Positions 2,599 through 18,971 of a stretch of 64,000 nt of DNA are shown piece after piece; the first letter of the stretch is position 1; the number at the start of each line of letters is the position of its first letter. Both the position numbers and the translations under genes were made by a program. This DNA comes from Arthrobacter sunyaminii (GTDB taxonomy: Bacteria > Actinomycetota > Actinomycetes > Actinomycetales > Micrococcaceae). The stretch covers positions 248,001-312,000 of the forward strand of contig NZ_CP076456.1 in NCBI RefSeq assembly GCF_018866305.1, in the 5' to 3' direction. The notes beneath the pieces were generated by a model, which was given only the letters and a program-made list of their open reading frames with translations, was not told the origin of the DNA and did no database searches.

Positions 2599-3342
2599 TC
2601 AGAGTGCGGCCAAGCCGTTGCGTCCGTCGGCATCCAGATAGGCATCATGGGCGGCGGTGATGGAGCGGCGGGCCTGCTCGCCGGCGGCCGCGCTGTCCCC
2701 GCTGGCAATGGCACTGAAGAGCAGTCGGTCGCTGGCGGCGGCATCCCGCATGGCAGCCCCGGGGTCACCGGCCGAAGAGATTCGATCATTCATGAGGTCC
2801 AGGAGGGCGCCGGAGACGGCCTGGCCGCTGGCCTGCAGCAGCTGGTTGTGGCTGGCCTCCCAGACGACGGCGTGAAACTCCAGATCCGCTGCATTGAACA
2901 GGTCCATGCTGCCTGCCGCGGATTCCATGCGTTCCACCGCACCGTGCATCGCGGCAAGCTGCTCCGGCGTGTGCAGCGCGGCTGCCAGCCGGCAGGCGGA
3001 GCTTTCCAGGATGATGCGGAACTGGACGAGGTCCGAGAGGGACAGGGACGCGATCCGAGCCAGCGTGGTGAAGGACTGCTGAAGTGCCTGTCCGGTGAAG
3101 GGAAGCACCTCCGGTCCGGAGCGTCCGCCGGGACGGGAGGCGATGAGCCCCCGGCTCTGCAGCACCCGAAGCGCTTCACGCACCGTGGGGCGGCTGACCG
3201 AGAACTGGACCATCAGCTCGCGTTCGCTGGGCAGATGCTGTCCGGGCTGAACCTCGCCGGAAATGATGACCGCTTCGATCTGTTCCACCACGCGTTCGTA
3301 GGTCAGGACGGGGACTGCGGGGGAGAAACTGATTTTGCTCAT
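2599..3342 (-). CDS. GntR/FadR-family transcriptional regulator (FCD domain)
   Basis: This 247-residue protein has an N-terminal winged helix-turn-helix (residues about 10-75) with the typical GntR run PGQHLPSERELMVQFSVSRP, then an all-helical FCD ligand domain containing the metal-ligand-type segment LEFHAVVWEASHN. The ATG at 3342 is preceded by GAAGGG. A GTG-free upstream extension to 3387 has poor composition and was rejected. The gene is divergent from a peptide-type ABC operon and shares a 170-bp intergenic region with a perfect GntR-type palindrome, so it probably controls that operon and itself. The inducer is unknown. Confidence 0.9.
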   Translation of the reverse strand: MSKISFSPAVPVLTYERVVEQIEAVIISGEVQPGQHLPSERELMVQFSVSRPTVREALRVLQSRGLIASRPGGRSGPEVLPFTGQALQQSFTTLARIASLSLSDLVQFRIILESSACRLAAALHTPEQLAAMHGAVERMESAAGSMDLFNAADLEFHAVVWEASHNQLLQASGQAVSGALLDLMNDRISSAGDPGAAMRDAAASDRLLFSAIASGDSAAAGEQARRSITAAHDAYLDADGRNGLAAL

Positions 3343-3420
3343 GCGGCCCTTCACAATCGAAGTTTTTTCGAATGTACCGGGCCGCATCGGCCAGCGATAT
3401 ACCTCCGTCCAAAACTTTCA

Positions 3421-3433
3421 CTGGTAAGACCAG
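3421..3433. promoter_or_regulatory. GntR/FadR-type operator palindrome
   Basis: CTGGTAAGACCAG is a perfect inverted repeat (arms CTGGT/ACCAG, 3-bp centre). It contains TGGT-N3-ACCA, the general GntR/FadR operator form. It lies about 80 bp from both divergent starts (3342 and 3513). A near-identical element is found at 12543-12555. Confidence 0.7.
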
Positions 3434-3512
3434 ATAAATAGGTAGACAGGCTGGCACTCCATGAGGTTGTCTGGTTCAAATTGTTGGACTTGCCGGAGGA
3501 TGGAGATCCCCA

Positions 3513-5036
3513 ATGAATCGTGCACCTTCCCGGGCAGCTGCGGTCGCACTGCTGGCTGCATCGGCGCTCTTCCTGTCATCCTGCTCTGCGGGTTCGTCCG
3601 GGGAGGAGCCGGCCGAGTCCGCTGAGCAGCGGTCCGGGATCACGGTGGCCCTCACCGGAGAGCCCACCAACCTTGACTTCACCACCACCGCCGGCGCCGC
3701 CATTCCCCAGGCGCTGATGACCAACGTGTATGAAGGCCTGGTGGAAATTGACCAGGACGGTGCCATCCAGCCGCTGCTTGCCGAGTCCTGGGACATCAGC
3801 GAGGACCGCCGCACCTACACGTTCACGCTGCAGCCGGACGTCACCTTCTCCAACGGTGAGCCGTTTACCGCCGACGACGTGAAGTTCAGCCTCGACCGCG
3901 TCAACTCCGGGGCATGGGTTTCGAGCCTGAAGAACAAGATGGCCATTGTGGAGGCGGTCAACGTCCTGGGTGACACCGAAGTGGAGATTGTGCTGAGCCG
4001 TCCAAGCAACGCCTGGTTGTTTGACCTCGGCACACCGGTGGGAGCCATGTTCGATGAAAGCGGCGTGGATGATCTGGCGAACACCGCCATCGGCACCGGA
4101 CCGTTCACCATCGAGGCCTGGAACCGCGGGCAGTCCATCGAGATGAAGGCTCGCAACGACTATTGGGGCGAGGCGCCCAAGGTGGATACCGCCACGCTGC
4201 GCTACTTCGCGGACGCAACGGCCACCACCAACGCGCTGCGATCCGGAGATGTGGACGTGGTCTACAACATGCAGGCACCCGAGCTGCTCTCCACCTTTGA
4301 AAGCGACGACGCCTACCAGGTTCTGGACGGCACCTCCAACGGCGAAATCATCCTGTCCATGAACAACAAACAGGCACCCTTTGACGATGTCCGCGTGCGC
4401 CAGGCGGTCATGCACGCCATCGACCGGCAGGCCGTGCTGGACACCGCGTGGAGCGGCTACGGCACCGTGGTGGGGGCGGCCGTACCGCCCACCGACCCGT
4501 ATTACGAGGACCTGACCGACGTCAACGCCTATGACCCGGACAAGGCCCGCGACCTGCTCGCCGAAGCCGGAGCCGAGGACCTGAACATCACCTTCAGCGT
4601 TCCCACCCGCCCCTACGCCACAGCCGTGTCCGAAATTGTGGTCTCCCAGCTGGCGGAGGTGGGCATCAACGCCACCATCGAATCCGCCGAGTTCCCCGCC
4701 GTCTGGCTGGACAAGGTCTTCACGCAGCATGACTACGACATGTCAGTGGTCCTTGCCGTGGAAAGCCGGGATTTCCTGACCATGTTCAACAACCCGGACT
4801 ATTACCTGGGCTATGACAACTCCAAGATCGCAGAAACGGCCGCCACAGCGGACGCCGCCGACGAAGCCGGCTACGTCGACGGCATGAAGGACGTGGTCCG
4901 CACGGTGACCGAAGACGCAGCCGCCGGAGTCCTCTTCCTGTTCCCGAACATTGTGGTGGCCGATGCCGATGTCACCAACGTCCCCGCCAACTCCGTCACC
5001 GAGGCACTGGACCTGACCGGAATCGGCTGGAGCTGA
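3513..5036 (+). CDS. ABC transporter substrate-binding lipoprotein, family 5 (peptide/opine type)
   Basis: This 507-residue protein has a lipoprotein signal peptide ending LFLSSC, so the mature protein is anchored at Cys24. The body matches the family 5 solute-binding fold: TNVYEGLVEID near the N-terminus, then LAESWDISEDRRTYTFTLQP, DDVKFSLDRV, and FDDVRVRQAVMHAIDRQAV in the centre. GGAGGATGGAG precedes the ATG. It is the first gene of an operon with two permeases, a double ATPase and an amidase. The family binds peptides, opines, nickel chelates and similar ligands. The downstream amidase suggests an amide-containing ligand, but the ligand is not readable from sequence. Confidence 0.93.
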   Translation: MNRAPSRAAAVALLAASALFLSSCSAGSSGEEPAESAEQRSGITVALTGEPTNLDFTTTAGAAIPQALMTNVYEGLVEIDQDGAIQPLLAESWDISEDRRTYTFTLQPDVTFSNGEPFTADDVKFSLDRVNSGAWVSSLKNKMAIVEAVNVLGDTEVEIVLSRPSNAWLFDLGTPVGAMFDESGVDDLANTAIGTGPFTIEAWNRGQSIEMKARNDYWGEAPKVDTATLRYFADATATTNALRSGDVDVVYNMQAPELLSTFESDDAYQVLDGTSNGEIILSMNNKQAPFDDVRVRQAVMHAIDRQAVLDTAWSGYGTVVGAAVPPTDPYYEDLTDVNAYDPDKARDLLAEAGAEDLNITFSVPTRPYATAVSEIVVSQLAEVGINATIESAEFPAVWLDKVFTQHDYDMSVVLAVESRDFLTMFNNPDYYLGYDNSKIAETAATADAADEAGYVDGMKDVVRTVTEDAAAGVLFLFPNIVVADADVTNVPANSVTEALDLTGIGWS

Positions 5037-5092
5037 AACCGGCGCGAGAGCATCCTGCGGCGCCGACGGCACGGACTGAAAAGAGGCACGCA

Positions 5093-6040
5093 TTGGGCAT
5101 CAGGCTGCTGATCAACGCGGCACGGTTTGCCGTCACCTTCCTGGTGGCCACGGTGGCGGTCTTCATCTTCATGCGTGCAGTCCCCGGAGACCCGGCGCAG
5201 ATTGCGCTGGGCGTCAACGCCACACCGGAGCTGCTCGAGCAAACCCGGGCGGAGTTCGGCACTGACCGGCCCCTGCCGGTGCAGTACTTTGACTGGACGC
5301 TGGGCCTGTTCCGCGGAGATTTCGGCACCAGCTACGTCACCCGCCAGGACATCACGCCGCTGATTCTGGACCGGGTGCAGGTCAGCCTGATCCTGGTGGG
5401 CCTGGCCATGGCGGTTGCCCTGCTGATCGCCGTGCCTCTGGGCACCCTGATGGCCGTGAACCACCGCCGGATCAGCGGCATCCTGCTCAGCGGGCTGAGC
5501 CAGGTGGGCGTGGCGGTACCCGGGTTCCTGGCGGCCATCCTCCTTGTGGTGGTGTTCGCCGTCGGGCTGGGCTGGTTCCCGGCCAACGGCTGGACGCCGC
5601 CGGGGGAGGACTTCGCCGATTTCCTTCGCCGGGTGTTCCTGCCCGTGCTGGCCCTGGCCTCCGTCCAGGGCGCCATCCTGACCCGGTACGTGCGGTCCGC
5701 GGTCCTGGAGATCATGAGCGAGGACTATCTGCGCACTGCCCGCGCCAAAGGGCTGGGGCGGACCGAAGCACTGGTGAAGCACGGCCTGCGCAACGCCGCC
5801 ATTCCGGTGCTTACGGTCACCGGGGTGCAGCTGGCCGCGCTGATCATCGGCGCCGTGGTCATTGAGCGCGTCTTCGTCATCCCCGGGCTGGGCTCCCTGC
5901 TCCTGGACGCGGTGGGCAACCGGGACCTGCTGACCGTGCAGTCCGTGGTCATGGTGCTGGTGGCCATCACCCTCACCATCAACCTGCTGGTGGATGTCCT
6001 GTACACCGTGCTGGATCCCCGAATCCGGAAGAAGGCCTGA
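5093..6040 (+). CDS. ABC transporter permease, DppB type
   Basis: This 315-residue permease has about six helices and starts at a TTG at 5093 preceded by AGAGG. Family hallmarks are RAVPGDPAQIALG after the first helix, the EAA-type cytoplasmic loop around RTARAKGLGRTEALVKHGLR, and VIERVFVIPGLGSLLLDAV near the end. It is the first membrane subunit of the peptide-type importer. Its stop overlaps the start of the next permease (TGATG). Confidence 0.92.
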   Translation: MGIRLLINAARFAVTFLVATVAVFIFMRAVPGDPAQIALGVNATPELLEQTRAEFGTDRPLPVQYFDWTLGLFRGDFGTSYVTRQDITPLILDRVQVSLILVGLAMAVALLIAVPLGTLMAVNHRRISGILLSGLSQVGVAVPGFLAAILLVVVFAVGLGWFPANGWTPPGEDFADFLRRVFLPVLALASVQGAILTRYVRSAVLEIMSEDYLRTARAKGLGRTEALVKHGLRNAAIPVLTVTGVQLAALIIGAVVIERVFVIPGLGSLLLDAVGNRDLLTVQSVVMVLVAITLTINLLVDVLYTVLDPRIRKKA

Positions 6041-6927
6041 TGAGCGATCTCACCCCGGCTGCCCTCACCGGAGCCGCTCCGGTCCCCGTCGGGCGTCCCG
6101 GCCGCGGCAAACCGTCGCCCACCCTGCTGATCGGCGCGGCACTGGTGGCCGTCGTCGTCGCGGCCGCTCTCCTCTCCTTTTTCTGGACACCGTACGATCC
6201 GGTCCGGGCCGTACCCGAGGACCGGCTGCTCGGCTCCAGCGCGGAGCACCTGATGGGAACCGACCGCTACGGCAGGGACGTGTTTTCGGCAATCCTCTAC
6301 GGCGCCCGCATCACCCTGCTGGTGGGCCTGATCTCCGTCGGCATTGCCCTTCTCATCGGAACGCCGCTGGGCATCCTTGCCGGAATGCGCGGCGGTGCGG
6401 CCGAGGAGATCAGCATGCGCGCCGCAGACATCCTGATGGCGTTTCCTGCCCTGCTGGTTGCCATCATGTTCGGCGCGGTGTTTGGGGCGGGGACGACGAC
6501 GGCGATGGTCGCCATTGGCATCGGCTCAATCCCGGGCTTCGCACGGGTGGCGCGCAGCGGAACCCTGCAGGTGATGAGCACCGAATATGTCATGTCCGCG
6601 CGCGCTTCCAGCCAGAGCGCACTGCGCATTGCCCGCCGGCATGTGCTCCCGAACATTGCGGGGGTGCTGGTGGTCCAGTGCTCCGTCACGTTTGCGCTGG
6701 CCGTCCTGGCGGAAGCGGCACTGTCCTTCCTGGGACTCGGTACGCCGCCGCCAATTCCCTCCTGGGGCCGGATGCTGCAGGAATCCCAGCAGTTCCTGGG
6801 CACCTTTCCGGCGCTCGCCATTTGGCCCGGAGCCGCCATCGCCCTGGCGGTCCTGGGCTTCAACCTGCTGGGTGACGGGCTACGCGACCGGTTTGACCCC
6901 AAGCTGAACGGGGAGGCTCCCCGATGA
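6040..6927 (+). CDS. ABC transporter permease, DppC type
   Basis: This 295-residue permease is the partner of the preceding DppB-type subunit. It has a cytoplasmic N-terminal tail, one helix, the conserved LMGTDRYGRDVFSAILYGAR motif of DppC/OppC proteins, and the EAA loop SARASSQSALRIARRHVLPN. It ends with a helix and a short charged tail. Its last codons overlap the ATPase gene (ATGA), which implies translational coupling. Confidence 0.93.
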   Translation: MSDLTPAALTGAAPVPVGRPGRGKPSPTLLIGAALVAVVVAAALLSFFWTPYDPVRAVPEDRLLGSSAEHLMGTDRYGRDVFSAILYGARITLLVGLISVGIALLIGTPLGILAGMRGGAAEEISMRAADILMAFPALLVAIMFGAVFGAGTTTAMVAIGIGSIPGFARVARSGTLQVMSTEYVMSARASSQSALRIARRHVLPNIAGVLVVQCSVTFALAVLAEAALSFLGLGTPPPIPSWGRMLQESQQFLGTFPALAIWPGAAIALAVLGFNLLGDGLRDRFDPKLNGEAPR

Positions 6928-8735
6928 GCGAGCGGCTGCTGGAGGTGAAGGACATTCGGGTGTCCGCCGGCGAGCACACCCTGGTGGACAGCTTCAACCT
7001 GGAGCTGGGCAAAGGTGAACGGGTAGGGCTGATCGGTGAGTCCGGGTCCGGCAAGTCCATGACTGCCACGGCACTGATGGGACTGTTGCCGGAGGGGGTC
7101 TCCGCCACCGGCTCCATCCGGCTGGCCGGAACCGACCATGACCTGGTGGGGGCCCGGGACAGCCAGATGCAGCGGATCCGCGGCAACGCGATGACCATGG
7201 TGTTCCAGGAACCCATGAGCGCCCTCAACCCGCTCATGAAGGTGGGGCCGCAGGTGGCCGAGGTGATGCTCAAACACCGCACGGTGCCCAACCGGCGGGC
7301 GGCTGCTGCGAAAGCCGTGGAGATGCTGGCCTCGGTGCGGCTGCCCGATCCCGCGGAAGCCGCCCGGGCCTATCCGCATCAGCTCTCCGGCGGACAGCGG
7401 CAGCGCGCCATGCTGGCCATGGCGCTGGCCAACGATCCGGCGGTCCTGCTCTGTGACGAGCCCACCACGGCCCTGGACGTGACCGTGCAGCGCCAGGTCC
7501 TGGACCTCATCCTGGAATCCGTGAGCCGGCGCGACACCGGACTGCTGTTCATCACCCACGACCTGTCAGTGGTGGCCAGCGTCTGTGACCGCGTCCTGGT
7601 CATGAACAAGGGCCGCGTGGTGGAAGAGGGAACCACCGAACAGGTGCTGACCCGGCCCGCCCACGCCTACACCCGGGGGCTGTTGGCGGCCTCGGACCTG
7701 GAGGCTACGGACAGTGACGGCCGGTTGTTCACGGTGGCCTCGGCCGACGCCTATGTACCGCCGAAGATCGCATCCCCGCCCGCCGAAGGGACGACGGCGG
7801 TCTCCCGGCCTGTCCTGCCTGACCGGCTTAACTCGCCTGCCGTGGACGCCCTGCCTGACCGCGGAGGGAACGACGGCGCCGCCGAGCCGCTGATCAGCGT
7901 GCGGGACCTGGTGCGCACCTACCGGCGCGGCCGCACCTCGCTCTTTGGTGCGCCCGCCGAGGTGCAGGCACTGCGGGGCATCTCGTTTGAGGTGGCTGCA
8001 GGGCAGCGGTTCGGCGTGGTGGGAGAGTCCGGGTCCGGCAAGTCCACGCTGCTGCGCATCCTGGCCGGACTGGACCGGCCCACCTCCGGCAGCGTCAAAG
8101 TTGCCGGAAACGAGGTGGCCGGGGCACGGGAAAACGAACTGCGCCAGCTGCGCCGCGAGCTTCAGATTGTTTTTCAGGACCCCATGGGATCGCTGGATCC
8201 GCGGATGCGGGTGCGTGACATCATCACGGAACCGCTGCTGCTGCCGGGGGAAACGGCGCGCCGCGGCAGGCATGCTGAACGCGCGGCCGAAATGCTCCGG
8301 GCCGTTGACCTTCCGCCCGAAGCAGCGGACCGCTTTCCGCACCAGTTCTCCGGCGGACAGCGGCAGCGCATTTCCATTGCCAGGGCCCTGATCGGAGAAC
8401 CGCGCATCCTGGTGGCCGACGAACCGGTGAGCGCCCTGGACGTTTCAGTGCGCGCACAGGTGCTGAACCTGCTCTCGGATCTGGTGGACCGGTACAACCT
8501 GACCCTGGTGTTCGTGTCCCATGACCTCGCCGTCGTACGGCATCTTTGCGACAACGTGGTGGTGATGAACCATGGGCTCATTGTGGAAAGCGGCCCGACG
8601 GAGCAGATTTACGAGGACCCGCAGCACGAGTACACCCGGACGCTGGTGGCGTCCTCGATGTCGCTGCGGACGGAACTCGCCGGGCGGGCGATGGACAGCC
8701 GGGAAGAATTGACCAGTCAGGGAGAGGGAAAATGA
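6924..8735 (+). CDS. ABC transporter ATP-binding protein with two fused nucleotide-binding domains (DppD-DppF type)
   Basis: This 603-residue protein carries two complete ABC ATPase domains. Domain 1 (about 4-255) has Walker A GESGSGKS, signature LSGGQRQR and Walker B VLLCDEPTTALD. Domain 2 (about 315-575) has Walker A GESGSGKS, signature FSGGQRQR and Walker B ILVADEPVSALD. Each domain carries an oligopeptide-type C-terminal extension. A single polypeptide therefore supplies both ATPases normally encoded by separate dppD and dppF genes. It overlaps its neighbours by ATGA on both sides. Confidence 0.95.
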   Translation: MSERLLEVKDIRVSAGEHTLVDSFNLELGKGERVGLIGESGSGKSMTATALMGLLPEGVSATGSIRLAGTDHDLVGARDSQMQRIRGNAMTMVFQEPMSALNPLMKVGPQVAEVMLKHRTVPNRRAAAAKAVEMLASVRLPDPAEAARAYPHQLSGGQRQRAMLAMALANDPAVLLCDEPTTALDVTVQRQVLDLILESVSRRDTGLLFITHDLSVVASVCDRVLVMNKGRVVEEGTTEQVLTRPAHAYTRGLLAASDLEATDSDGRLFTVASADAYVPPKIASPPAEGTTAVSRPVLPDRLNSPAVDALPDRGGNDGAAEPLISVRDLVRTYRRGRTSLFGAPAEVQALRGISFEVAAGQRFGVVGESGSGKSTLLRILAGLDRPTSGSVKVAGNEVAGARENELRQLRRELQIVFQDPMGSLDPRMRVRDIITEPLLLPGETARRGRHAERAAEMLRAVDLPPEAADRFPHQFSGGQRQRISIARALIGEPRILVADEPVSALDVSVRAQVLNLLSDLVDRYNLTLVFVSHDLAVVRHLCDNVVVMNHGLIVESGPTEQIYEDPQHEYTRTLVASSMSLRTELAGRAMDSREELTSQGEGK

Positions 8736-10174
8736 CGGAGACGGCCAATCAATCACCGCAGCAGGAGGGCACCCCGCGCAGCCGGGGCCTCCACGACCTC
8801 TCCGCCGCCGAGCTCAGCAGCGCATATGCCGCCGGAACCCTGACCCCGGTGGAGGTGGCAGAAGCGGTCATCGAACGGATCCGGGAGCGGGAACCGGAGC
8901 TGAACGCGTTCTACCGGTTTGATCCGCAGGACGTTCTGCGCCAGGCGCAGGACAGCGCCGAACGGTGGCGGACGGGATCCTCCCGCAGCGCATACGACGG
9001 CGTGCCCTGCAGTATTAAGGAGAACATTTCCCGGGCCGGCATCCCCAAGCCGTCGGGAACGGCCCTGCCCGATCCGCCGGTGCCGGCCGGGAATGCGCCC
9101 GTCACGGACCGGCTGCTGGAAGCGGGGGTGGTGGTTCTCGGCTCCACCACCATGCCGGACTGGGGCATGCTCTCCTCCGGAGTGTCCAGCCTGCACGGGG
9201 TCTCGCGCAGCGCCTGGAATCCGGCCTGGACCACGGGAGGCTCCAGTGCCGGAGCCGGCAGTGCGGCGGCCGCCGGATACGGGCCGCTGCATGTGGGAAC
9301 CGACATCGGCGGATCCATCCGGCTGCCCGGAACCTGGCAGGGACTGGCCACGCTGAAGCCCAGCGCCGGGCTGGTCCCGCTCGACGCTCCGTACACCGGC
9401 CGGGCAGCAGGCCCGCTGGCCCGCACGGTGGCGGACGCCGCCGTCCTGATGGAGCTGGTGGCACGGCCTGACCCCCGGGACTACACCACCAGGCCGTTTC
9501 CACCCCAGCAGTGGAGCGCCGAACCGGCAGACCCGGCGCCGCTGCGCATTGCCCTGCAGCTGGACGCCGGCTGCGGAGAGGCACCCGACGCCGAGGTGCT
9601 GGCGGCGGTGCAGGCTGCCGCCGCCCTGTTTGAGCAGGCCGGAGCCGTGGTTGAAATCCTGGCTCCCTTCATCGACGAGGACATGCTGCACGGGCTCGAC
9701 GAATTCTGGCGGACCCGGTCCTACGCGGATCTGGAGGAACTGGAACCCGCGCACCGGGAGCTGGTCCTGGATTACATCGTCCGCTGGTGCTCCCGCGGCG
9801 CCGACGTCTCGGGCAGCCAGACCATCCGGAATTTCCACAGCATCGGACGGATGCAGCAGGCGACGGTGCTCGCCGTCGCACCTTACGACGTCGTCCTCTC
9901 ACCGGTGGCACCCATGGCGGCGTTCCCCGCTGAACAGCCCATGCCCCTGCCTGACCCCGAGCGGACCATGGGCCACATCGGATTCACCGTGCCGTACAAC
10001 ATGTCCGGCCATCCCGCTGCCACAGTGAACTGCGGATTCACGGCGAACGGCAGACCCATCGGTCTGCAGCTTGCCGGAGCTGTGGGCAACGATGCGGAGC
10101 TGCTGAGGGTTGCGGCCTGGTATGAAGCGGCGCGGCCGGTGTCTTCAACTCCGAACTGGACAGCCTTGGCCTGA
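8732..10174 (+). CDS. Amidase (amidase-signature family)
   Basis: This 480-residue enzyme has the full Ser-cisSer-Lys catalytic set: Lys in PCSIKENIS, cis-Ser in TTGGSSAGAGS, and nucleophile Ser in GTDIGGSIRLPG. The start is the ATG at 8732, overlapping the ATPase stop; longer upstream frames are antisense to or shifted from the transporter. No signal peptide is seen, so it should act in the cytoplasm. As last gene of the ABC operon it probably hydrolyses the imported amide or peptide-like substrate. The family is broad, and the substrate cannot be told from sequence. Confidence 0.92.
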   Translation: MTETANQSPQQEGTPRSRGLHDLSAAELSSAYAAGTLTPVEVAEAVIERIREREPELNAFYRFDPQDVLRQAQDSAERWRTGSSRSAYDGVPCSIKENISRAGIPKPSGTALPDPPVPAGNAPVTDRLLEAGVVVLGSTTMPDWGMLSSGVSSLHGVSRSAWNPAWTTGGSSAGAGSAAAAGYGPLHVGTDIGGSIRLPGTWQGLATLKPSAGLVPLDAPYTGRAAGPLARTVADAAVLMELVARPDPRDYTTRPFPPQQWSAEPADPAPLRIALQLDAGCGEAPDAEVLAAVQAAAALFEQAGAVVEILAPFIDEDMLHGLDEFWRTRSYADLEELEPAHRELVLDYIVRWCSRGADVSGSQTIRNFHSIGRMQQATVLAVAPYDVVLSPVAPMAAFPAEQPMPLPDPERTMGHIGFTVPYNMSGHPAATVNCGFTANGRPIGLQLAGAVGNDAELLRVAAWYEAARPVSSTPNWTALA

Positions 10175-10222
10175 TTCGGACGCAGCTCTGAACCAGGCCC
10201 GGAGCGAGCCCGGAATCAGGCC
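10168..10222. terminator. Inverted repeat spanning two convergent stop codons
   Basis: GGCCTGATTC (10168-10177) and its exact complement GAATCAGGCC (10213-10222) form a 10-bp stem. An internal GC-rich region around CCAGGCCCGG can extend the fold. Both convergent genes end in GCC-TGA, and each stop codon lies inside one arm. It probably acts as a bidirectional terminator, although no T-run follows. Confidence 0.5.
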
Positions 10223-10989
10223 GGAGGATCGAAGCGGCCGTCGACGGCGGTCCAGCCGCCGTCGACCGTCAGTACCGAGCCGGTGACGAAGGTAGAAGCG
10301 TCCGACGCCAGGTACACCACGGCGCCTGCCAGCTCTTCGGGCCGGGACCAGCGGCCCAGGGCGCTCTTCGCCGCGTAGGCTCCGTACCAGTCCGGATTGT
10401 CCTTGATCTGCGCGGTCAGCGGCGTCTCGACGACTCCCGGGGCGATGACGTTGACGCGCACACCCGCGGGACCGAACTCAGCCGCGGCGGTGCGTGCCAG
10501 CTGGACCAGGCCGGCCTTGCTGGCCGCGTAAACGCTCTGACCGGGCTCCACGACCGAGGCGCGGATCGAGGAGAACCCGATGATGCTTCCGCCTCCGTTG
10601 GCCGCCATCCGCGGTGCGAAAGCCTGCAGCAGCGAGAAAGAGGCGCGCAGGTTCAGGTTCATCACCCGGTCAAATTCCTCCAGGGTGTAGTCGGCAATCC
10701 GCTTGCGGACATTCGTGGCTGCCGTAAACACCAGGGCCGCGCAATCGGCGTACTGTTCAGCGGCCGCCTGAACGGCGTTCGGATCCAGCACATCGAGCAC
10801 CGCCGGTTCCCCGGCGGCGCCGATCAGGTCCGCCGTCGCTGCCGCGGAAGCCGCGTCCCGGTCCGCGCACACCACCTTGGCGCCATGGGCCGCCAGCGCC
10901 AGGGCGGACTCCCGGCCAATCCCGCTGCCGGCTCCCACCACCAGCACGCGCCGTCCGGCCAGGTCGAACAGTTCCGAGTAGTTCGTCAT
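10216..10989 (-). CDS. Short-chain dehydrogenase/reductase
   Basis: This 257-residue classical SDR has the cofactor motif VVGAGSGIGRE near the N-terminus, an acidic ADRD segment after strand 2, and the catalytic motif SVYAASKAGL with upstream Ser in GFSSIR. It ends with a typical SDR C-terminus (GSVLTVDGGWT). It lies 43 bp downstream of the aldehyde dehydrogenase gene on the same strand, so the two form an operon that could convert an alcohol to aldehyde to acid. Substrate unknown. Confidence 0.9.
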   Translation of the reverse strand: MTNYSELFDLAGRRVLVVGAGSGIGRESALALAAHGAKVVCADRDAASAAATADLIGAAGEPAVLDVLDPNAVQAAAEQYADCAALVFTAATNVRKRIADYTLEEFDRVMNLNLRASFSLLQAFAPRMAANGGGSIIGFSSIRASVVEPGQSVYAASKAGLVQLARTAAAEFGPAGVRVNVIAPGVVETPLTAQIKDNPDWYGAYAAKSALGRWSRPEELAGAVVYLASDASTFVTGSVLTVDGGWTAVDGRFDPPA

Positions 10990-11032
10990 CAGGGGTCCTA
11001 TCGCTGAGGGGAATGCTGGTGTGCGGCCGGGG

Positions 11033-12487
11033 TCAGGGGCGGATCATCGCCATGCGGGTGACCGTGAATTCCTCGATAGCGAACCGCGGCCCCTCCCTGC
11101 CGATTCCGGAGTCCTTCACGCCGCCGTAGGGCATGATGTCCGAGCGGAACCCCGGGATCTCATTGACCACCACGCCGCCGACGTCGAGCTGCTCAATGGC
11201 CTGGAAGGCGCGCTGAAGCGACGCGGTGTACACGGCGGCCTGCAGGCCGTACCGGGAATCGTTCACCGTGGCGATCGCTTCAGCCATCCCGGAAACGCGT
11301 TCCAGGCACACCACCGGTCCGAAGATCTCCTCGCTCCACACACTGCAGTCATGGGGTACACCGGCCAGGACTGTGGGGGCGATGCTCCGGCCCTCGGCGC
11401 CGCCGCCGGCAACCAGCCGTGCCCCGGCGGACACCGCCGCCTTGATCCACCCGAGGACCCGCTCCGCGGCCGCGGTGTTGATGAGCGGCGCCAGGCGGGT
11501 GGCTTCGTCGCGGGGATCGCCCACCACCACTTCGGGCAACCGGGCGAGCAGGCGCCGCTCGAACTCGTCAGCGATCGGCTCGGCCAGGACCACGCGCTGG
11601 ACCGAAATGCAGGCCTGCCCGTTGGCGTAGAAACCGCCGCGGATGACGGCGTCCACCGCATCGTCCAGGACAGCGTCTTCGGCAACAATCAGCCCGGTGT
11701 TGGAGCCCAGCTCAAGGACCGTTTTGCGCGGCGCGGCTGCTTTCGCGATCCGGTGGCCAACTGCGGCGGAACCGGTGAAGGAGACGACGGCGACCCTCGG
11801 ATCATCCACCAGCGCCGCACCGACGTCGGGCCCTCCGGTGACCAGCTGGACAGCAGCCGGCGTCACGCCGTGCTTGTGGAGGACTGTCCGGATGAGATGG
11901 ACGGCCCAGAGCGTGGTCAGCGGCGTATCGGGGGACGGTTTGATGATGACGGGGCAGCCGGCGGCGATCGCCGGGGCCAGCTTGTGGCTGGCCAGCAGCA
12001 GCGGATAGTTGAAGCCTGCAATGCCGACGACGACGCCGGCCGGCCGCCGGGTGAAGTAGCCGAGCATCCCTTCCCCCTGGGGCTGCAGATCCAGGGGAAC
12101 GGTTTCTCCGTGGATGCGTGCCGTCTCCTCTGCGGCGGCAGACCAGGTGGCGAGGGTGCGCTGGACTTCGGTGCGGCAGTCGACCAATGGCTTGCCGGTT
12201 TCCAGAACCAGCAGGTCGGCCATCGCCGTCGCTTCCCGGGAGAGCGCGTCATGGATGTCCATCAGCAGCGCCCGCCGGGTTCCAGTGCTCAGCTTGGCTG
12301 TCACCGCGAAGGCTGCGGCTGCTTCATCCAGGGCCTGCCCGGCATGCTCCACCGATGCCACCGGCGCCGAAGCCACCTCAGTGCCGTCATAGGGGAAGGA
12401 GATCACCGAGCTTTCCGGGCACGGAGCCCACTCATGGACTCCGGCTCCCAGAGGAAGTCCGTCGGGGTAGGGCGGCGCAAATATCAC
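11033..12487 (-). CDS. NAD(P)-dependent aldehyde dehydrogenase
   Basis: This 484-residue enzyme has ALDH hallmarks in order: substrate-channel segment AGFNYPLLLASHKL, cofactor loop VSFTGSAAVGHRIA, general base Glu in VLELGSNTG, catalytic Cys in NGQACISVQR, and EEIFGPVVCLE towards the end. The ELGSN variant and overall shape resemble the glyceraldehyde-3-phosphate/lactaldehyde/phosphonoacetaldehyde dehydrogenase branch. It is the first gene of an operon with the SDR. A GntR-type palindrome 56 bp upstream of its ATG links it to the regulator at 2599-3342. Confidence 0.92.
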   Translation of the reverse strand: MIFAPPYPDGLPLGAGVHEWAPCPESSVISFPYDGTEVASAPVASVEHAGQALDEAAAAFAVTAKLSTGTRRALLMDIHDALSREATAMADLLVLETGKPLVDCRTEVQRTLATWSAAAEETARIHGETVPLDLQPQGEGMLGYFTRRPAGVVVGIAGFNYPLLLASHKLAPAIAAGCPVIIKPSPDTPLTTLWAVHLIRTVLHKHGVTPAAVQLVTGGPDVGAALVDDPRVAVVSFTGSAAVGHRIAKAAAPRKTVLELGSNTGLIVAEDAVLDDAVDAVIRGGFYANGQACISVQRVVLAEPIADEFERRLLARLPEVVVGDPRDEATRLAPLINTAAAERVLGWIKAAVSAGARLVAGGGAEGRSIAPTVLAGVPHDCSVWSEEIFGPVVCLERVSGMAEAIATVNDSRYGLQAAVYTASLQRAFQAIEQLDVGGVVVNEIPGFRSDIMPYGGVKDSGIGREGPRFAIEEFTVTRMAMIRP

Positions 12488-12542
12488 GATGGCTCCCGTG
12501 CGTGGGGGACTTTTGCGGACAATCCAAGCGGTTCCAAGCTAA

Positions 12543-12555
12543 CTGGTCAGGCCAG
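12543..12555. promoter_or_regulatory. Second GntR/FadR-type operator palindrome
   Basis: CTGGTCAGGCCAG has arms CTGG/CCAG, and one more base on each side also pairs (ACTGG/CCAGT). It agrees with 3421-3433 at 11 of 13 positions (shared form CTGGTnAGnCCAG). It lies 56 bp before the aldehyde dehydrogenase ATG, a normal operator distance. This suggests joint control of both operons. Confidence 0.6.
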
Positions 12556-12642
12556 TACAGTGACGGTATCGGCCCGGAGGTTCGGGGTCAACGGTTTGAT
12601 AGGTTGTTCGACTACTGACCTGTAGATGGACGGAAGGACGTT

Positions 12643-12795
12643 ATGGCACCGGAAACAGCACTTCTTGTCATAGTCGCCGCGACAATCATCTTCCTGGTCG
12701 TGGTCGTGGTTCTCGTGCGCCGGTTCAGCAAGTCCAATGCCGGAAAGTACCCGCCGGCAACTAAGGGCAAGTGGTTTGAGGTCCGCCGCCGGTAG
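12643..12795 (+). CDS. Small single-pass membrane protein (50 aa)
   Basis: ATG at 12643 to TAG at 12793-12795 encodes 50 residues: a hydrophobic helix (residues 6-24, rich in Ile and Val), then a basic cytoplasmic-type tail with RRFSKSNAGKYPPATKGKW. A good ribosome-binding site, GGAAGGA, lies six bases upstream. It stands alone between the aldehyde dehydrogenase promoter region and telA. It is short enough to be missed by common length cut-offs. Family not recognised. Confidence 0.65.
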   Translation: MAPETALLVIVAATIIFLVVVVVLVRRFSKSNAGKYPPATKGKWFEVRRR

Positions 12796-13091
12796 GGAGA
12801 GCTCTGCCCGGGAGACCTGATCAAACAGCACCAGCTCGAACCTGAACAATGCAGGCCTCTCGAACTTCCATATGGATGCGTGGGATTTCCAGGTCATTGA
12901 ATCCGTCACCACTTACTCTTGAATTTCCTGAGTTTTCCGGAAGAATTCGCATGAATCACCTCAGGGCGCGCACGGTTTGGAATTACGGACAGCTGGTTCA
13001 TTCCGGACATCGGGATAAACAATTGCCCTGCCAGCGCAAACTACGGCAGCACAGCTAGACTGCAATCCTGCCGGAACCCCAAGGAGTAAAT
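12796..13091. other. Intergenic region upstream of telA-like gene
   Basis: This stretch of about 296 bp has lower GC than its surroundings (runs such as CTTGAATTTCCTGAGTTTTCC). I find no convincing gene, tRNA or terminator in it. A TAGACT hexamer near 13055 could be a -10 element for the telA-like gene but lacks a matching -35 at normal spacing. AAGGAG directly precedes the telA start. Confidence 0.4.
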
Positions 13092-14315
13092 ATGTCTAAC
13101 CCGCTCGACCTCAGCAATGCCCAATACTCAGAGGTGGAAAGCCCGCTGGTGTTGGAGCCGCCAAAGCCTGCGGTTGAGGTTACGGTTCACCGCCCTGAAA
13201 AGGTGGGCGGCATGATTCTCGTCGATGCCGAGGCCCAGGAGAAGCACGCCGCGACCGCTAAGAGTTTCCTTGATGACCTGCTGGCTACCCCGCTGCAAAG
13301 CCCTGAATTTCAGATGAAGCTGGCGCAGTTGACCCGTCTTGGTGAGGGCACCATGCAGCAGGCCAGCACTGCGTCCAACCGCATGCTGAAAAGGCCGGCA
13401 GCAGCGCTCGCCGCCACTGGGGATGACCCCGCATCGCGGACAGGTAAAAGCCTCGTAGAACTGCGGCAGATCGTGACGGAGCTGGACCCGAAGCGGCATG
13501 ATTTGACCGGAACGAAACGCATCCTGAGGTTCCTCCCCGGAGGCAGCGCCATCCAGCGGTACTTCATCAAGTATGAGTCCTCACAGGCGCAGCTCGATGC
13601 CATCACCAAAGCACTCAAGGGAGGGCAGGATGACCTGCGGCAGGACAACGCGGCCATCCAGACAGAGCGCGACGTCCTCTGGGAAGCAATGGGTCAACTC
13701 GCGAACTATGCGGTGCTCGCGAACCACCTAGGAGACGGTCTCGAGCAGCGAATCTCGGACCTTAGAAACCAGGGCAAAACGGATGATGCCGCCACATTGG
13801 AATCGGATGCGCTCTTCTACGTCCGCCAGCGGCACCAGGACCTTTTGACTCAGATGGCAGTATCCATCCAGGGCTATCTGGCCCTCGACGTGGTCAAGAA
13901 GAACAATTCGGAGCTGATTAAGGGTGTGGACCGGGCGCTCGGCACTACCCTGGCGGCCTTGCGGGTCGCTGTGATCGTTGCCCAAGCACTGGCGCAGCAA
14001 AAGATTGTGCTCGCCCAGATCGATGCCCTCAACTCGACCACCGCCGACATGATTGTCTCTACTTCAGAGCTCCTCCGCTCCCAGGGCACCGCCATTCATC
14101 AGAATGCCTCCAAGGCCACCATTGACCCCGCCAAGCTGCAACAGGCGTTCGACAACGTGTTCCAAGCCATGGACGAGGTCGACCGGTATAAGGCCGAAGC
14201 AGCCCAGTCCATGAAGCAGACGGTGCAGGTTCTTCAGGGACAGGTCAGCCGGGCCCAGCTGCAGCTGGAGCGCAGTCACGCCTCTGACGCCGCCACCCAA
14301 CCCTTGAAGGGATAG
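13092..14315 (+). CDS. telA: TelA/KlaA-family toxic anion resistance protein
   Basis: This 407-residue soluble, largely helical protein matches the TelA family in length and layout: an acidic proline-containing N-terminus, the segment RFLPGGSAIQRYFIKYESSQ around residue 150, and long coiled-coil-like stretches to the C-terminus (residues 165-400). AAGGAG precedes the ATG. The gene is followed after two bases by an XpaC-like membrane protein, a common pairing. Tellurite resistance is the historical label; the true cellular role is likely envelope stress. Confidence 0.85.
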   Translation: MSNPLDLSNAQYSEVESPLVLEPPKPAVEVTVHRPEKVGGMILVDAEAQEKHAATAKSFLDDLLATPLQSPEFQMKLAQLTRLGEGTMQQASTASNRMLKRPAAALAATGDDPASRTGKSLVELRQIVTELDPKRHDLTGTKRILRFLPGGSAIQRYFIKYESSQAQLDAITKALKGGQDDLRQDNAAIQTERDVLWEAMGQLANYAVLANHLGDGLEQRISDLRNQGKTDDAATLESDALFYVRQRHQDLLTQMAVSIQGYLALDVVKKNNSELIKGVDRALGTTLAALRVAVIVAQALAQQKIVLAQIDALNSTTADMIVSTSELLRSQGTAIHQNASKATIDPAKLQQAFDNVFQAMDEVDRYKAEAAQSMKQTVQVLQGQVSRAQLQLERSHASDAATQPLKG

Positions 14316-15175: not shown

Positions 15176-16555
15176 TCAGCTGAAGTCCGCCTTGCGGATC
15201 AGCCCGTGCACGCCCACGGTCCGGTCCACCACTTGGGAGACGGCGAAGTCCGCCGCAGCTGAGAGGTACGCGTAGGCGACGGCCCGGTCCATGCCCTTCT
15301 CCTGCTGTAGGAAGTCCAGGGCGTTGACCACGGCCCGCCGCATGGCCACATTCAGGTCGCTGCTGACCCCGCCGCCGCCCAGGCCGTCGGGGTCGGACAG
15401 CCCGATGGGAATCCATGCCTCCGCCGTTTCTCCGAACGGATACCGGTGCGCGAGTGCCGGGGCGTCACCAGCGCCGGGTTTGCAGACGGTCAGCCGGAAG
15501 GTGCCGCGCAGAGACCCTTCCATCGCGGTCAGGGCCACCTCGCCGTCGCCCATGCCCATGTGCGGATCGCCCACATAGAAGAGTGCGCCGTCGGCCTTCA
15601 CCGGCAAGTAGAAGGTGGACCCGGGACCGAGGTGGCGGATGTCGATGTTGCCGCCGCCGAGGGTGGGCGGCACCGAGTTGGCCTCCGGATCGGTCAGGCC
15701 GCTGCTTTCGGCGAAGGCCACGCCCATCATGCCCATGAACGGGCGCAGCGGAAAGCGCACCTTCATGTCACCGCTGGTCATCACACCCTTGCCGTCCTCG
15801 ATCGCGGTGAAAACGGAGACGTTGTGATAATCGGTCGGGATGCCGGACGCGCGGTTGTCCGTGGCGGCCGGCGGCATGACTTCGTCCAGCGTGATGCCGT
15901 CCGGCGCGGCCGGGCCCTTCTGCAGTGCCAGCGATCCCTTGCCGTGCCGGCTGGACACGACGCCGTACGGCACCCGGGGTACGGCAGCGAGGGTTTCGAT
16001 TTTGAGCACATCGCCGGGCTCGGCACCTTCCACCGCGACGGGGCCGGTCACCACATGCGGTCCGTCGGCATCAAAGTCCCGCGGCGTGCGGTTGTAGCCG
16101 GCGGCAATGTCGACGGCGTCCTGCAGCACGCCATTTTTCTCCACGCCGTGGCTGCCGAAGAAGGAGACCGGATCCCGTCCCTGGTCCTCCAGGATTCCTT
16201 CATGGGAGAGGGCATCGATGGTGATGGTCTGGCCGGATTTCATTCGCGCCACGGGCGTGGCATGCACGGTGGGAACGTAGCCCCACAGCACGTCGTCGGG
16301 GGTGGAAGCGAGATAGTGGTCACCGGGGATGTTCCCCGAGTGCGGCTGCAGGATTTCGCTTGGCTGTGCCTGAGACGGGTCCGGTGTGCCGGTACCCGGA
16401 GCTTCTGACACGGAAGGACTCTGGGCTGCCTGGGCAGTGCAACCGGTGGTGACGGCGAGGGCTCCAAGCCCGGCTGCGGCACCCAGGAATCCCCTGCGGC
16501 CCAGTCCCTTGGTCAGTACCTCGGCGGCCTCGCGTCCGATCAGCATTCTGTTCAT
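15176..16555 (-). CDS. Tat-exported acetamidase/formamidase-family lipoprotein
   Basis: This 459-residue protein begins with a twin-arginine signal (GRRGFLGAAAG) followed by a lipobox ending VTTGC, so it should be exported folded and lipid-anchored. The body matches the FmdA/AmdA family: LSHEGILEDQGRDPVSFFG, GDVLKIETLAAVP, and DPHMGMGDGEVALTAMEGS. Known members are mostly cytoplasmic enzymes that release ammonia from formamide or acetamide, so export is unusual. AGGAGG lies five bases before the ATG at 16555. It is monocistronic, with a divergent small gene on the left of its promoter. Confidence 0.85.
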   Translation of the reverse strand: MNRMLIGREAAEVLTKGLGRRGFLGAAAGLGALAVTTGCTAQAAQSPSVSEAPGTGTPDPSQAQPSEILQPHSGNIPGDHYLASTPDDVLWGYVPTVHATPVARMKSGQTITIDALSHEGILEDQGRDPVSFFGSHGVEKNGVLQDAVDIAAGYNRTPRDFDADGPHVVTGPVAVEGAEPGDVLKIETLAAVPRVPYGVVSSRHGKGSLALQKGPAAPDGITLDEVMPPAATDNRASGIPTDYHNVSVFTAIEDGKGVMTSGDMKVRFPLRPFMGMMGVAFAESSGLTDPEANSVPPTLGGGNIDIRHLGPGSTFYLPVKADGALFYVGDPHMGMGDGEVALTAMEGSLRGTFRLTVCKPGAGDAPALAHRYPFGETAEAWIPIGLSDPDGLGGGGVSSDLNVAMRRAVVNALDFLQQEKGMDRAVAYAYLSAAADFAVSQVVDRTVGVHGLIRKADFS

Positions 16556-17329: not shown

Positions 17330-18925
17330 TTATTGAGACGCGACCTTGCCGGCCCACGCCTGCGCGTAGAACAGCGGGGAATGCGAGTCCAGCAGCTCTG
17401 AGTAGGCGGCAGCTTCCTTGGCCTGCGCTGACCCGGCCGGGATGCCCGGCGAGAAGGCTGACACGCCCAGCCCTGCTTCATGATCCTGGAGCGTCAAGCC
17501 GGCGGCTTCCAGCACTGTGGGGTACATGCTCAGCTGGTCCACGCCGGGCCGCTGCTGGATGGTCTTGTCCTGTCCCGGAATCCAGATCCGGTTGAAGATG
17601 GTGCGGTTCTCGTGGAAATCCAGCTGTTCGTGGAAGGCGTCACCGGCACTCATGTGCTTGAGGTGGTCGCCCATGATGACGACGGCGGTGTCCTCAAGGT
17701 ATCCCTGTTCCTTCATGTGCCCCACGAATCCTGCCACCTGCGTCATGGAGCAGTGGAATGCGGAGGTGACCTCGTTCTGGGTGTCTACGTCGCAGTAGTC
17801 GTAAATGTGCACCGGCTCGTGGGTGTCCAGCGTCAGCATCGACAGATTGAACGGCTGGCCGGTCCTTTCGGATTCGGCGTGCAGCTCATCAACTTTGGCC
17901 TTGGCGTTGGCCATGAGCCGCTCATCGCTCAGGCCCCAGTCACTGCGGAAGCTGTTTTCCGGTTCGCCGGCAGCGCGCCAGTCCGCAAGACCCTTCACCT
18001 CGGAGTAGCCGTGGCTGGTCAGGAACGTGTCCTTTGCGGCGAAGGAGGAGCTGGCGCCGCCCATGAAGACACTGGTGTAGCCCTGCTCGTCCAGGACATC
18101 GCCCAGGCAGGTGATTCCGCCCAGGTAGGTGTCGGCGTCTTCATCGACCGTGGGTGAGGATCCGCTGTCCGAACCGAAGCCTGCGCCCTTCAGGGGAACA
18201 CCGCACTGGGTCGAGGCGAGACCGGCCATGGTCCAGCCCCCGCCCTTGTACTGCTGCAGGTCGTCGACACTCTGCCAGCCCTCTTCGGCCGCAGTGGCTT
18301 CCTTGAGCGGCACAAACGCGTCCTTTTCGAACAGCTGGTCGTCAGCGAGGGTCGCCTCGCCGGACTCCAGGTAGATCAGCACCAGGTTGCGCTTGTCCGT
18401 GTTGTCGGTGACTGTGGGCTCCACATAGTAATCACCGACGTCGTACGGGGACTGGCTCGCCTTGATGTAATCCGCCATGCCCACCGTGGTGCTGAAGGCG
18501 GTGGTACCGCCGACAACCACCGCGGACACCAGAACCGTGGAGATGCTGCGCAGGATCCATTGCTTGCGGCGGGGGAGCATGCCCTCACCGGCGCGGCGGC
18601 GTTTGCGCCGCCGGGTATGCCGCCAGAAGGCGATCGCCACCGTGATGAGCAGGGGCGCGACGCCGATCCCCAGGATGCCGGCCCAGACGATTGCTCCGCC
18701 TCCGCCGTCCGTTTCCACGGACACCAGGTTCAGGAGCATCTGGCCCACCGAAATCTCGCCCCAGTAGAAACGTATGCCGGCCGCGGCGATGAGGAGTGCA
18801 AGCCCCAGCCAGATCAGGACGTAGACCAGCAGCGATCCCACGACAGCACCGACCCGTCGGGTCACGTGAAAGATCCGGCCAGACATGACACCCCGCGTTC
18901 CGATACCGGCATTCCCGCCGGGCAC
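17330..18925 (-). CDS. Membrane-anchored phosphoglycerol transferase (OpgB/LtaS-like, alkaline phosphatase superfamily)
   Basis: This roughly 531-residue protein has three or four N-terminal helices (to about residue 160) and an extracellular sulfatase-fold domain. Visible motifs are NLVLIYLESGEATLAD, with the region that carries the catalytic Thr/Ser; GGWTMAGLASTQCGVPL; LTLDTHEPVH; and VVIMGDHLKHM, with metal-binding Asp-His. This fits enzymes that transfer phosphoglycerol to periplasmic glucans or teichoic acids. GTG at 18925 has AAGGAG at 11 bases; TTG at 18934 and ATG at 18886 are alternatives. A promoter lies at 18972-19000. Confidence 0.85.
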   Translation of the reverse strand: MPGGNAGIGTRGVMSGRIFHVTRRVGAVVGSLLVYVLIWLGLALLIAAAGIRFYWGEISVGQMLLNLVSVETDGGGGAIVWAGILGIGVAPLLITVAIAFWRHTRRRKRRRAGEGMLPRRKQWILRSISTVLVSAVVVGGTTAFSTTVGMADYIKASQSPYDVGDYYVEPTVTDNTDKRNLVLIYLESGEATLADDQLFEKDAFVPLKEATAAEEGWQSVDDLQQYKGGGWTMAGLASTQCGVPLKGAGFGSDSGSSPTVDEDADTYLGGITCLGDVLDEQGYTSVFMGGASSSFAAKDTFLTSHGYSEVKGLADWRAAGEPENSFRSDWGLSDERLMANAKAKVDELHAESERTGQPFNLSMLTLDTHEPVHIYDYCDVDTQNEVTSAFHCSMTQVAGFVGHMKEQGYLEDTAVVIMGDHLKHMSAGDAFHEQLDFHENRTIFNRIWIPGQDKTIQQRPGVDQLSMYPTVLEAAGLTLQDHEAGLGVSAFSPGIPAGSAQAKEAAAYSELLDSHSPLFYAQAWAGKVASQ

Positions 18926-18971
18926 CCTTGACAAAACTCCTTGACAACCAACCCGTTCTCGGGCTCGTAAC

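Follow-up and report, generated by a model that had tools for sequence, protein, structure and literature searches.

Candidate genes for the import and degradation of pantothenate in Arthrobacter sunyaminii and related actinobacteria

Bacterial degradation of pantothenate (vitamin B5, pantoyl-beta-alanine) runs, in this order, through pantothenase (EC 3.5.1.22), pantoate 4-dehydrogenase (EC 1.1.1.106), dehydropantoate dehydrogenase (which we take to be EC 1.2.1.33) and dimethylmalate dehydrogenase (presumably EC 1.1.1.84). EC 1.1.1.84 and 1.2.1.33 were tabulated in a 2007 survey among the validated orphan activities, ranked excellent and difficult (PMC1940265). A pantothenate hydrolase had been described by 1966, according to a title in the reference list of a 2023 article whose text reports pantothenase activity from Pseudomonas fluorescens and calls the protein unknown (PMC10393543). 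Among the matches listed in searches of the open-access PMC literature, none gave a published gene assignment for the pathway. Here we analyze a window of 64,000 nucleotides from Arthrobacter sunyaminii (positions 248,001 to 312,000 of its single 3.91-Mb contig, NZ_CP076456.1). Two operons at positions 2599 to 12555 of this window probably encode the GntR-controlled import and degradation of pantothenate, or of a pantothenate-bearing compound such as pantetheine, and with their counterparts in relatives they provide a predicted gene set for this known but largely orphan pathway. The linked families match its reaction types (amide hydrolase, alcohol, aldehyde and beta-decarboxylating dehydrogenases) and include beta-alanine use; whereas the known activity comes from P. 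fluorescens, the enzymes of the window are likened to it by reaction type and not by sequence.

The cluster comprises a minus-strand GntR/FCD regulator gene, a plus-strand operon for a Dpp-type importer that ends in an amidase gene, and a convergent minus-strand operon for an aldehyde dehydrogenase (ALDH) and a short-chain dehydrogenase/reductase (SDR). A preliminary description had recognized a GntR/FadR regulator, an ABC-amidase operon and an ALDH-SDR operon here, and Pfam confirms the gene calls: GntR/FCD, a family-5 solute-binding protein, two permeases, fused ATPases, an amidase-signature enzyme, SDR and ALDH. The regulator (2599..3387, minus strand, with an alternative ATG at 3342) has the winged helix-turn-helix (PF00392, E 4e-21) and FCD (PF07729, E 2e-19) domains of FadR-type GntR proteins, but all of its 25 listed NCBIfam matches fall below their cut-offs. 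The importer has the full family-5 domain set known from Dpp/Opp importers with AgaA/GsiB-type binding proteins: on the plus strand, a solute-binding lipoprotein (3513..5036; PF00496, E 1e-88), a DppB-like permease (5093..6040; PF00528), a DppC-like permease (6040..6927; PF00528) and a fused DppD-DppF ATPase (6924..8735; PF00005 twice, oligo_HPY). Among solved chains AgaA scores best against the binding protein, and the GsiB-type YliB is also near the top; unlike described importers, neither the binding protein nor the permeases reach a substrate-specific cut-off among the NCBIfam matches listed.

The candidate pantothenase is the amidase-signature enzyme (8732..10174, plus strand; PF01425). 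It matches NF005450 with 620 bits (cut-off 458), the sole one of the genome's five matches to this model to pass the cut-off, and carries SIKEN (94), GGSS (169) and GTDIGGSIR (189), which we take to be the Ser-cisSer-Lys catalytic triad. The SDR (10216..10989, minus strand; PF13561), a candidate pantoate 4-dehydrogenase, has the motifs GAGSGIG, CADRD, which reads as NAD type, and YAASK. The ALDH (11033..12487, minus strand; PF00171, E 7e-134), a candidate 4-dehydropantoate dehydrogenase, has GQAC and ELGSNTG, and its top NCBIfam match is lactaldehyde dehydrogenase at 424 bits, below the cut-off of 650. Scans of both intergenic regions for sigma-70-like promoters and for terminators found none.

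We propose a route in which each substrate, reaction direction, transport step and act of repression is predicted from sequence. The Dpp-type ABC importer would take up pantothenate, a pseudo-peptide, and the amidase would cleave it to pantoate and beta-alanine. Two NAD-type oxidations would follow: the SDR would act on the alcohol group at C4 of pantoate and yield aldopantoate, which the ALDH would oxidize to 3,3-dimethylmalate, and a beta-decarboxylating dehydrogenase would convert the latter to 2-oxoisovalerate and CO2, leading into valine metabolism. This last step would fall to a LeuB paralogue encoded in the cluster in most ALDH-bearing relatives, and here perhaps to one of two unlinked tartrate-dehydrogenase-type enzymes. 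Beta-alanine would pass through an aminotransferase to malonate semialdehyde and on to malonate-semialdehyde dehydrogenase, the candidate genes lying elsewhere in the genome. GntR would bind two palindromes and so keep both operons repressed, until a ligand frees it from them. Pantothenate degradation was adopted as a working idea before the neighboring genes were inspected and without a list of expected gene types, so that the first fit is a retrodiction.

The two operons recur together in relatives. A scan for relatives of the amidase, the nearest of which lies in an Arthrobacter (92%), yielded 238 loci, and the best 80 of these were kept for all counts in relatives given below. Among the 80, a binding protein is present in 65, GntR in 46, ALDH (>55% identity) in 32 and SDR in 30; both ALDH and SDR accompany the amidase in 29 loci from several genera, and the linkage that the preliminary description had drawn from the window alone is thereby borne out. 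These genomes are non-independent and the counts carry no phylogenetic correction; gene starts in relatives come from our own simple caller, and some are wrong, such as that of the ALDH in locus L073.

Two further samples, both including the A. sunyaminii genome, were drawn from the order (297 genomes) and the phylum (396 genomes). In the order sample, ALDH occurs in 6 genomes and the amidase in 28. Four of the five other genomes with ALDH have the amidase 2-7 kb away, compared with 27 of 296 genomes overall; in the fifth, a 4.2-kb contig (G031, locus L200, 1181-4209), an ArgE/DapE-type M20 hydrolase directly precedes ALDH-SDR. Locus L197 (G140) brings together a LeuB-like gene described below (c8), a perfect palindrome, ALDH-SDR, the amidase and the importer. 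Importer, S58-family protein, ALDH and SDR stand in one row in L194 (G016), where an MmsA-type dehydrogenase and an aminotransferase adjoin the amidase, and likewise in L196. The phylum sample has ALDH in 3 genomes and the amidase in 5. G405 carries a PucR-like regulator, a ThnT-like S58 protein, importer, amidase and MmsA; G512 has importer, SDR and amidase, and G654 importer and amidase only. Locus L208 (G478, 7362-13750) consists of GntR, an ArgE/DapE-type M20 hydrolase in the place of the amidase, ALDH, SDR and, last, the gene for an SSS symporter; CTGGTCTGACCAG lies in the region that separates GntR from the hydrolase-ALDH-SDR operon, a swap of hydrolase under the same site. The linkage in the 80 loci and in the order sample supports the view that the importer-amidase and ALDH-SDR operons form one conserved unit.

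A shared palindrome also connects the operons. Palindrome 1, CTGGTAAGACCAG (3421..3433), is separated by 33 nt from the start of the longest GntR open reading frame (3387) and by 78 nt from its alternative ATG at 3342; on the other side, 79 nt lie between it and the ATG of the binding-protein gene (3513). Palindrome 2, CTGGTCAGGCCAG (12543..12555), precedes the start of ALDH (12487) by 55 nt. The positions of both in the preliminary description, and their identity at 11 of 13 positions, were correct. They are putative operators of the transport and ALDH-SDR operons, and we take them to have the TGGT-N3-ACCA form of FadR-type GntR regulators. When the pattern is counted with two mismatches in the window alone there is no enrichment (12 matches against 11.6 ± 3.5 in shuffles), and the palindrome was therefore judged by its conservation in relatives. 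Across the whole genome, eight exact CTGGTNNGNCCAG places are listed, only palindromes 1 and 2 fit CTGGT[AC]AG[AG]CCAG, and the two CTGGTMAGRCCAG sites listed are both in this cluster; the loose pattern with one mismatch is uninformative (231 and 217 matches against 327 and 320 for the reversed control). A matrix built from the transporter promoters of relatives ranks the two palindromes highest in the window (20.5 and 19.9, the next place scoring 16.0), with one training site, from the near relative L031, identical in sequence to palindrome 1.

In relatives, upstream regions were scored by matches to the ten fixed letters of CTGGTNNNACCAG, with 764 other genes of the same loci as controls. 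A site with at least nine of the ten letters precedes 25 of 64 binding-protein genes, 13 of 31 ALDH genes and 7 of 23 LeuB-like genes; 13 of the 764 controls reach this level and none has all ten. Using a matrix derived from the 25 transporter sites only, 8 of the 31 ALDH upstream regions exceed the best of all controls, 13 lie above a score that 7 controls exceed and 22 above a score that 37 exceed. In many Leucobacter loci both operons are preceded by a shifted variant of the site, (A/C)TGGTAAG(A/G)CCAC. The palindrome link between transporter and ALDH operons is conserved in relatives, which is the outcome that the preliminary description had proposed to look for before orthologous ALDH-SDR operons.

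The GntR protein of the window could control both operons through these sites. It is also conceivable, if unlikely, that the pathway is as proposed and that palindrome 2 is here the target of a different GntR or a remnant without function, the window's GntR controlling its own operon only. Five of the 80 loci (L033, L035, L037, L038 and L039) encode a GntR 36-42% identical to that of the window beside the SDR; it is additional to the GntR that precedes the transporter in four of them and is the only one found in L037, a warning that joint control may not extend to all relatives. Moreover, four of the five (L033, L037, L038 and L039) have AAG at the center of the transporter site and CAG at that of the ALDH site, the same split as in the window. 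Loci with a single GntR nonetheless keep matching sites before both operons, for example L050, L059, L077 and many of those in Leucobacter, which speaks for joint control.

A clue to the chemistry comes from a gene that relatives have next to ALDH and that we call c8. It encodes an Iso_dh protein (Pfam, one member tested). Of the 32 ALDH loci, 24 have it in divergent orientation to ALDH, compared with none of the 48 loci without ALDH; the two genes are 118-305 bp apart in 19 cases, 883-889 bp apart in three and some 1.9 kb apart in the other two. Like actinobacterial LeuB, the 3-isopropylmalate dehydrogenase, three c8 proteins score above the PRK03437 LeuB cut-off. They differ from it by their place in the tree, where 24 c8 proteins (23 called proteins of ALDH loci and that of G140) form one clade (0.996) and 15 LeuB-type proteins another (0.995), and by a pocket motif within a segment that presumably contacts the substrate side chain in LeuB: c8 proteins have ERGFILxMR there, except for the L048 fragment, which lacks it, and the LeuB type has ER(E/G)(M/L/F)LLKLR. 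In addition, a separate LeuB-type protein is present in all 11 c8 genomes searched, out of the 24, and in eight of these only c8 and the LeuB type were seen. We therefore rejected c8 as a mere second leucine enzyme, although genome G272 shows that this sequence type can be one. Since beta-decarboxylating dehydrogenases use a 2-hydroxy-dicarboxylate, family chemistry would make the ALDH product such a compound. The ALDH would then act on a 4-oxo-2-hydroxy acid and the SDR on a 2,4-dihydroxy acid, of which pantoate is an example.

A search for c8 in the 297 genomes of the order sample found two, in G140 and G272. Outside the c8 clade, the protein closest to it in the tree is the LeuB of the G272 leucine operon, so that c8 may derive from a LeuB of this type by transfer. 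In Segeticoccus (L062:3958-5025, minus strand), an Iso_dh protein of a non-c8 lineage, whose best model is tartrate dehydrogenase below its cut-off, lies between the binding protein and the amidase and looks like a separate recruitment of the same reaction.

In A. sunyaminii itself the cluster lacks c8. The tree identifies the best match to c8 in its genome (52%) as LeuB, and the next (45% and 41%) are a convergent, unlinked pair of tartrate-dehydrogenase-type enzymes (2067725-2068810 and 2068921-2069910 of the contig), one above the model cut-off and one just below it on a shortened start. The relatives of loci L031 and L032, likewise devoid of c8, retain tartrate-type enzymes, while eight of the 11 c8 genomes searched showed c8 and the LeuB type alone; at most this suggests that a tartrate-type enzyme stands in for c8. 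Genes for an aminotransferase (73%), MmsA (83%) and a PucR-like regulator lie side by side at about 945 kb, unlinked to the cluster. Around the six other exact CTGGTNNGNCCAG sites of the genome, no pathway gene was seen in the called open reading frames of the 3-kb surroundings, read without a family search. Further along the window, 15176-16555 (minus strand) encodes a protein of the FmdA/AmdA (acetamidase/formamidase) Pfam family that scores far below the NCBIfam formamidase cut-off and has a counterpart in L031 with 91% identity, and 17330-18934 (minus strand) a membrane protein resembling an LTA-synthase/sulfatase-type enzyme, as read from its sequence.

Relatives also link beta-alanine-type genes to the amidase. 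A PRK06062-type class III aminotransferase occurs in 10 of the 80 loci and a methylmalonate-semialdehyde-type (MmsA-like) dehydrogenase in 6, where chance would give about 0.4 loci per gene (a 20-kb stretch being some 0.5% of a genome, by arithmetic without phylogenetic correction). The PRK06062 family is named 'hypothetical protein' with no substrate attached, which limits the reading of this aminotransferase as a beta-alanine enzyme. MmsA directly follows the amidase in L211, and in L073 a single stretch holds amidase, SDR, ALDH, c8, aminotransferase, MmsA-like enzyme and a PucR regulator. In L040 the MmsA-like gene is accompanied by valine-degradation genes (acyl-CoA dehydrogenase, 3-hydroxyisobutyryl-CoA hydrolase and HIBADH) next to the cluster, neighbors that fit 2-oxoisovalerate as the product. 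In Novosphingobium (L099) the MmsA-like gene adjoins the amidase, an SSS symporter and an S58 protein precede it, and an AptA-type aminotransferase lies about 9 kb away.

The SDR and ALDH together with c8 and these genes bear on what the amidase cleaves. Its PDB matches include aryl acylamidases, urethanases and the 6-aminohexanoate cyclic-dimer hydrolase (81-107 bits), below GatA subunits (up to 143 bits), and would agree with the scavenging or detoxifying of other hydroxylated amides, such as N-acyl amino alcohols, urethanes or nylon-type oligomers. We consider this very improbable, for it leaves the LeuB-like, ThnT-like and beta-alanine-type genes unexplained. We rejected an N-acyl amino alcohol as the substrate, because the LeuB-like and beta-alanine-type genes would have no part in its degradation. 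Of the hydroxylated amide put forward in the preliminary description, the oxidizable alcohol on the acid half and the suggestion of a pantothenate-like compound stand, and the N-acyl amino alcohol does not, the neighbors suiting a beta-alanine half and a malate-type hydroxy-diacid. That description had also recognized no known system of this make-up, which holds for the genes, unassigned in the open-access PMC literature searched, and fails for the pathway, which has a biochemical literature.

S58 hydrolases, the family in which we place DmpA and BapA, add a further element. Proteins related to that of L194 are present in eight loci (L074, L099, L102, L107, L194, L196, L201 and L211). When the S58 proteins of L194, L196, L074 and L099 were compared with all solved structures, each was nearest to ThnT: at 348 bits for L194, 321 for L196 and 338 for L074, with the next chain at 145 or less, and at 172 against 115 for L099. 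ThnT degrades a pantetheinyl group to cysteamine, according to one paper on it, and is named the pantetheine hydrolase in a 2026 paper (PMC13062082). ThnT serves CoA side-chain breakdown in thienamycin biosynthesis. The ThnT-like proteins of L194 and L196 stand in one row with ALDH-SDR, and their role here would be catabolic; the window genome shows no ThnT-like gene in a search made without a positive control. As predicted from these families, breakdown of the pantetheine arm of CoA would require just such a set: a pantetheine hydrolase, an amide hydrolase, SDR, ALDH and enzymes of the beta-alanine type.

These hydrolases bear on two other readings. In the first, which we think quite unlikely, the chemistry is the same and the substrate is another amide of pantoate or of a similar 2,4-dihydroxy acid (pantetheine, panthenol or an N-acyl-beta-alanine yet to be named). 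The ThnT-like proteins of the eight loci do suggest pantetheine in those lineages, a peptide-type importer could take larger ligands, and the M20 hydrolase replaces the amidase in L200 and L208. Yet a ThnT-like gene lies within the stretch in only one of the 32 ALDH loci (L102) and was not found in the A. sunyaminii genome, so the pantoyl-beta-alanine bond should be the one that is cleaved. The second reading, a system for beta-peptides or beta-alanyl peptides of the carnosine type in which SDR and ALDH serve something else, would account for the Dpp-type importer, the S58 hydrolases and the beta-alanine-type genes near the amidase, and DmpA and BapA indeed act on beta-alanyl peptides (PMC9235088). 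It appears improbable: SDR, ALDH and an Iso_dh enzyme share the site and the cluster, and a peptide system has no obvious use for them, and the DmpA-type chain 9yys (named L-aminopeptidase/D-esterase) reaches only 97-124 bits in the four S58 proteins, with 124 in L194 against 348 for ThnT.

Several observations weigh against the assignment of the cluster to pantothenate. No c8-clade gene was found by search in the window cluster or elsewhere in the A. sunyaminii genome, nor in those of L031 and L032. The 18-kb stretches around the tartrate-type pair (L152) and the beta-alanine genes (L153) have no intergenic palindrome, the sole near-palindrome lying inside a gene. The ThnT-like protein was likewise not found in this genome, in a search that shows little as it had no positive control. 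Elsewhere, c8 is missing from 8 of the 32 ALDH loci, in one of which (L065) the stretch ends 280 bp past ALDH, and in L048 the c8 gene is broken into two frames. The close relative of c8 in G272 (L198:9872-10996) has leuC, leuD and leuA as neighbors, evidently being the leucine enzyme of that genome, and for this reason c8 could have isopropylmalate activity as far as its sequence alone can tell.

Other loci also count here. For four new loci of the phylum sample expectations were written beforehand, and genes that tell of the substrate (ThnT-like, MmsA) were present in one of the four; of the other three, two have the importer with or without SDR and one has GntR and SDR with a different hydrolase. 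Seventeen Brevibacterium loci (e.g., L072, L075 and L104) have importer and amidase at a conserved chromosomal place and no GntR, SDR or ALDH in the stretch. Finally, the SSS symporters of the variant loci score 36-72 bits against the pantothenate symporter model (cut-off 328) and better against a monocarboxylate permease model; their identification as PanF was dropped because the match is weak.

Taken more broadly, the evidence leads us to lean, with less assurance than for the window itself, towards a widespread regulon, found mainly in actinobacteria, through which vitamin B5 and the pantetheine arm of CoA are consumed and in which a GntR protein recognizes CTGGTMAGACCAG. Such a regulon would combine peptide-type import, a ThnT-like hydrolase, an amidase-signature pantothenase (or an M20 enzyme), SDR, ALDH and a LeuB paralogue as dimethylmalate dehydrogenase. 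If this is true, the dedicated peptide-type importer, the shared GntR site, the recruited LeuB paralogue and the ThnT-like partner would all be new. Genes would be in hand for four enzyme activities, where our sources still lacked one for pantothenase (2023) and for two others (2007), and the cluster offers a candidate gene for each step along with a regulator that has a defined site. Vitamin B5 would then be a source of carbon and nitrogen for common actinobacteria, which would bear on vitamin exchange in communities and provide enzymes for pantoate chemistry.

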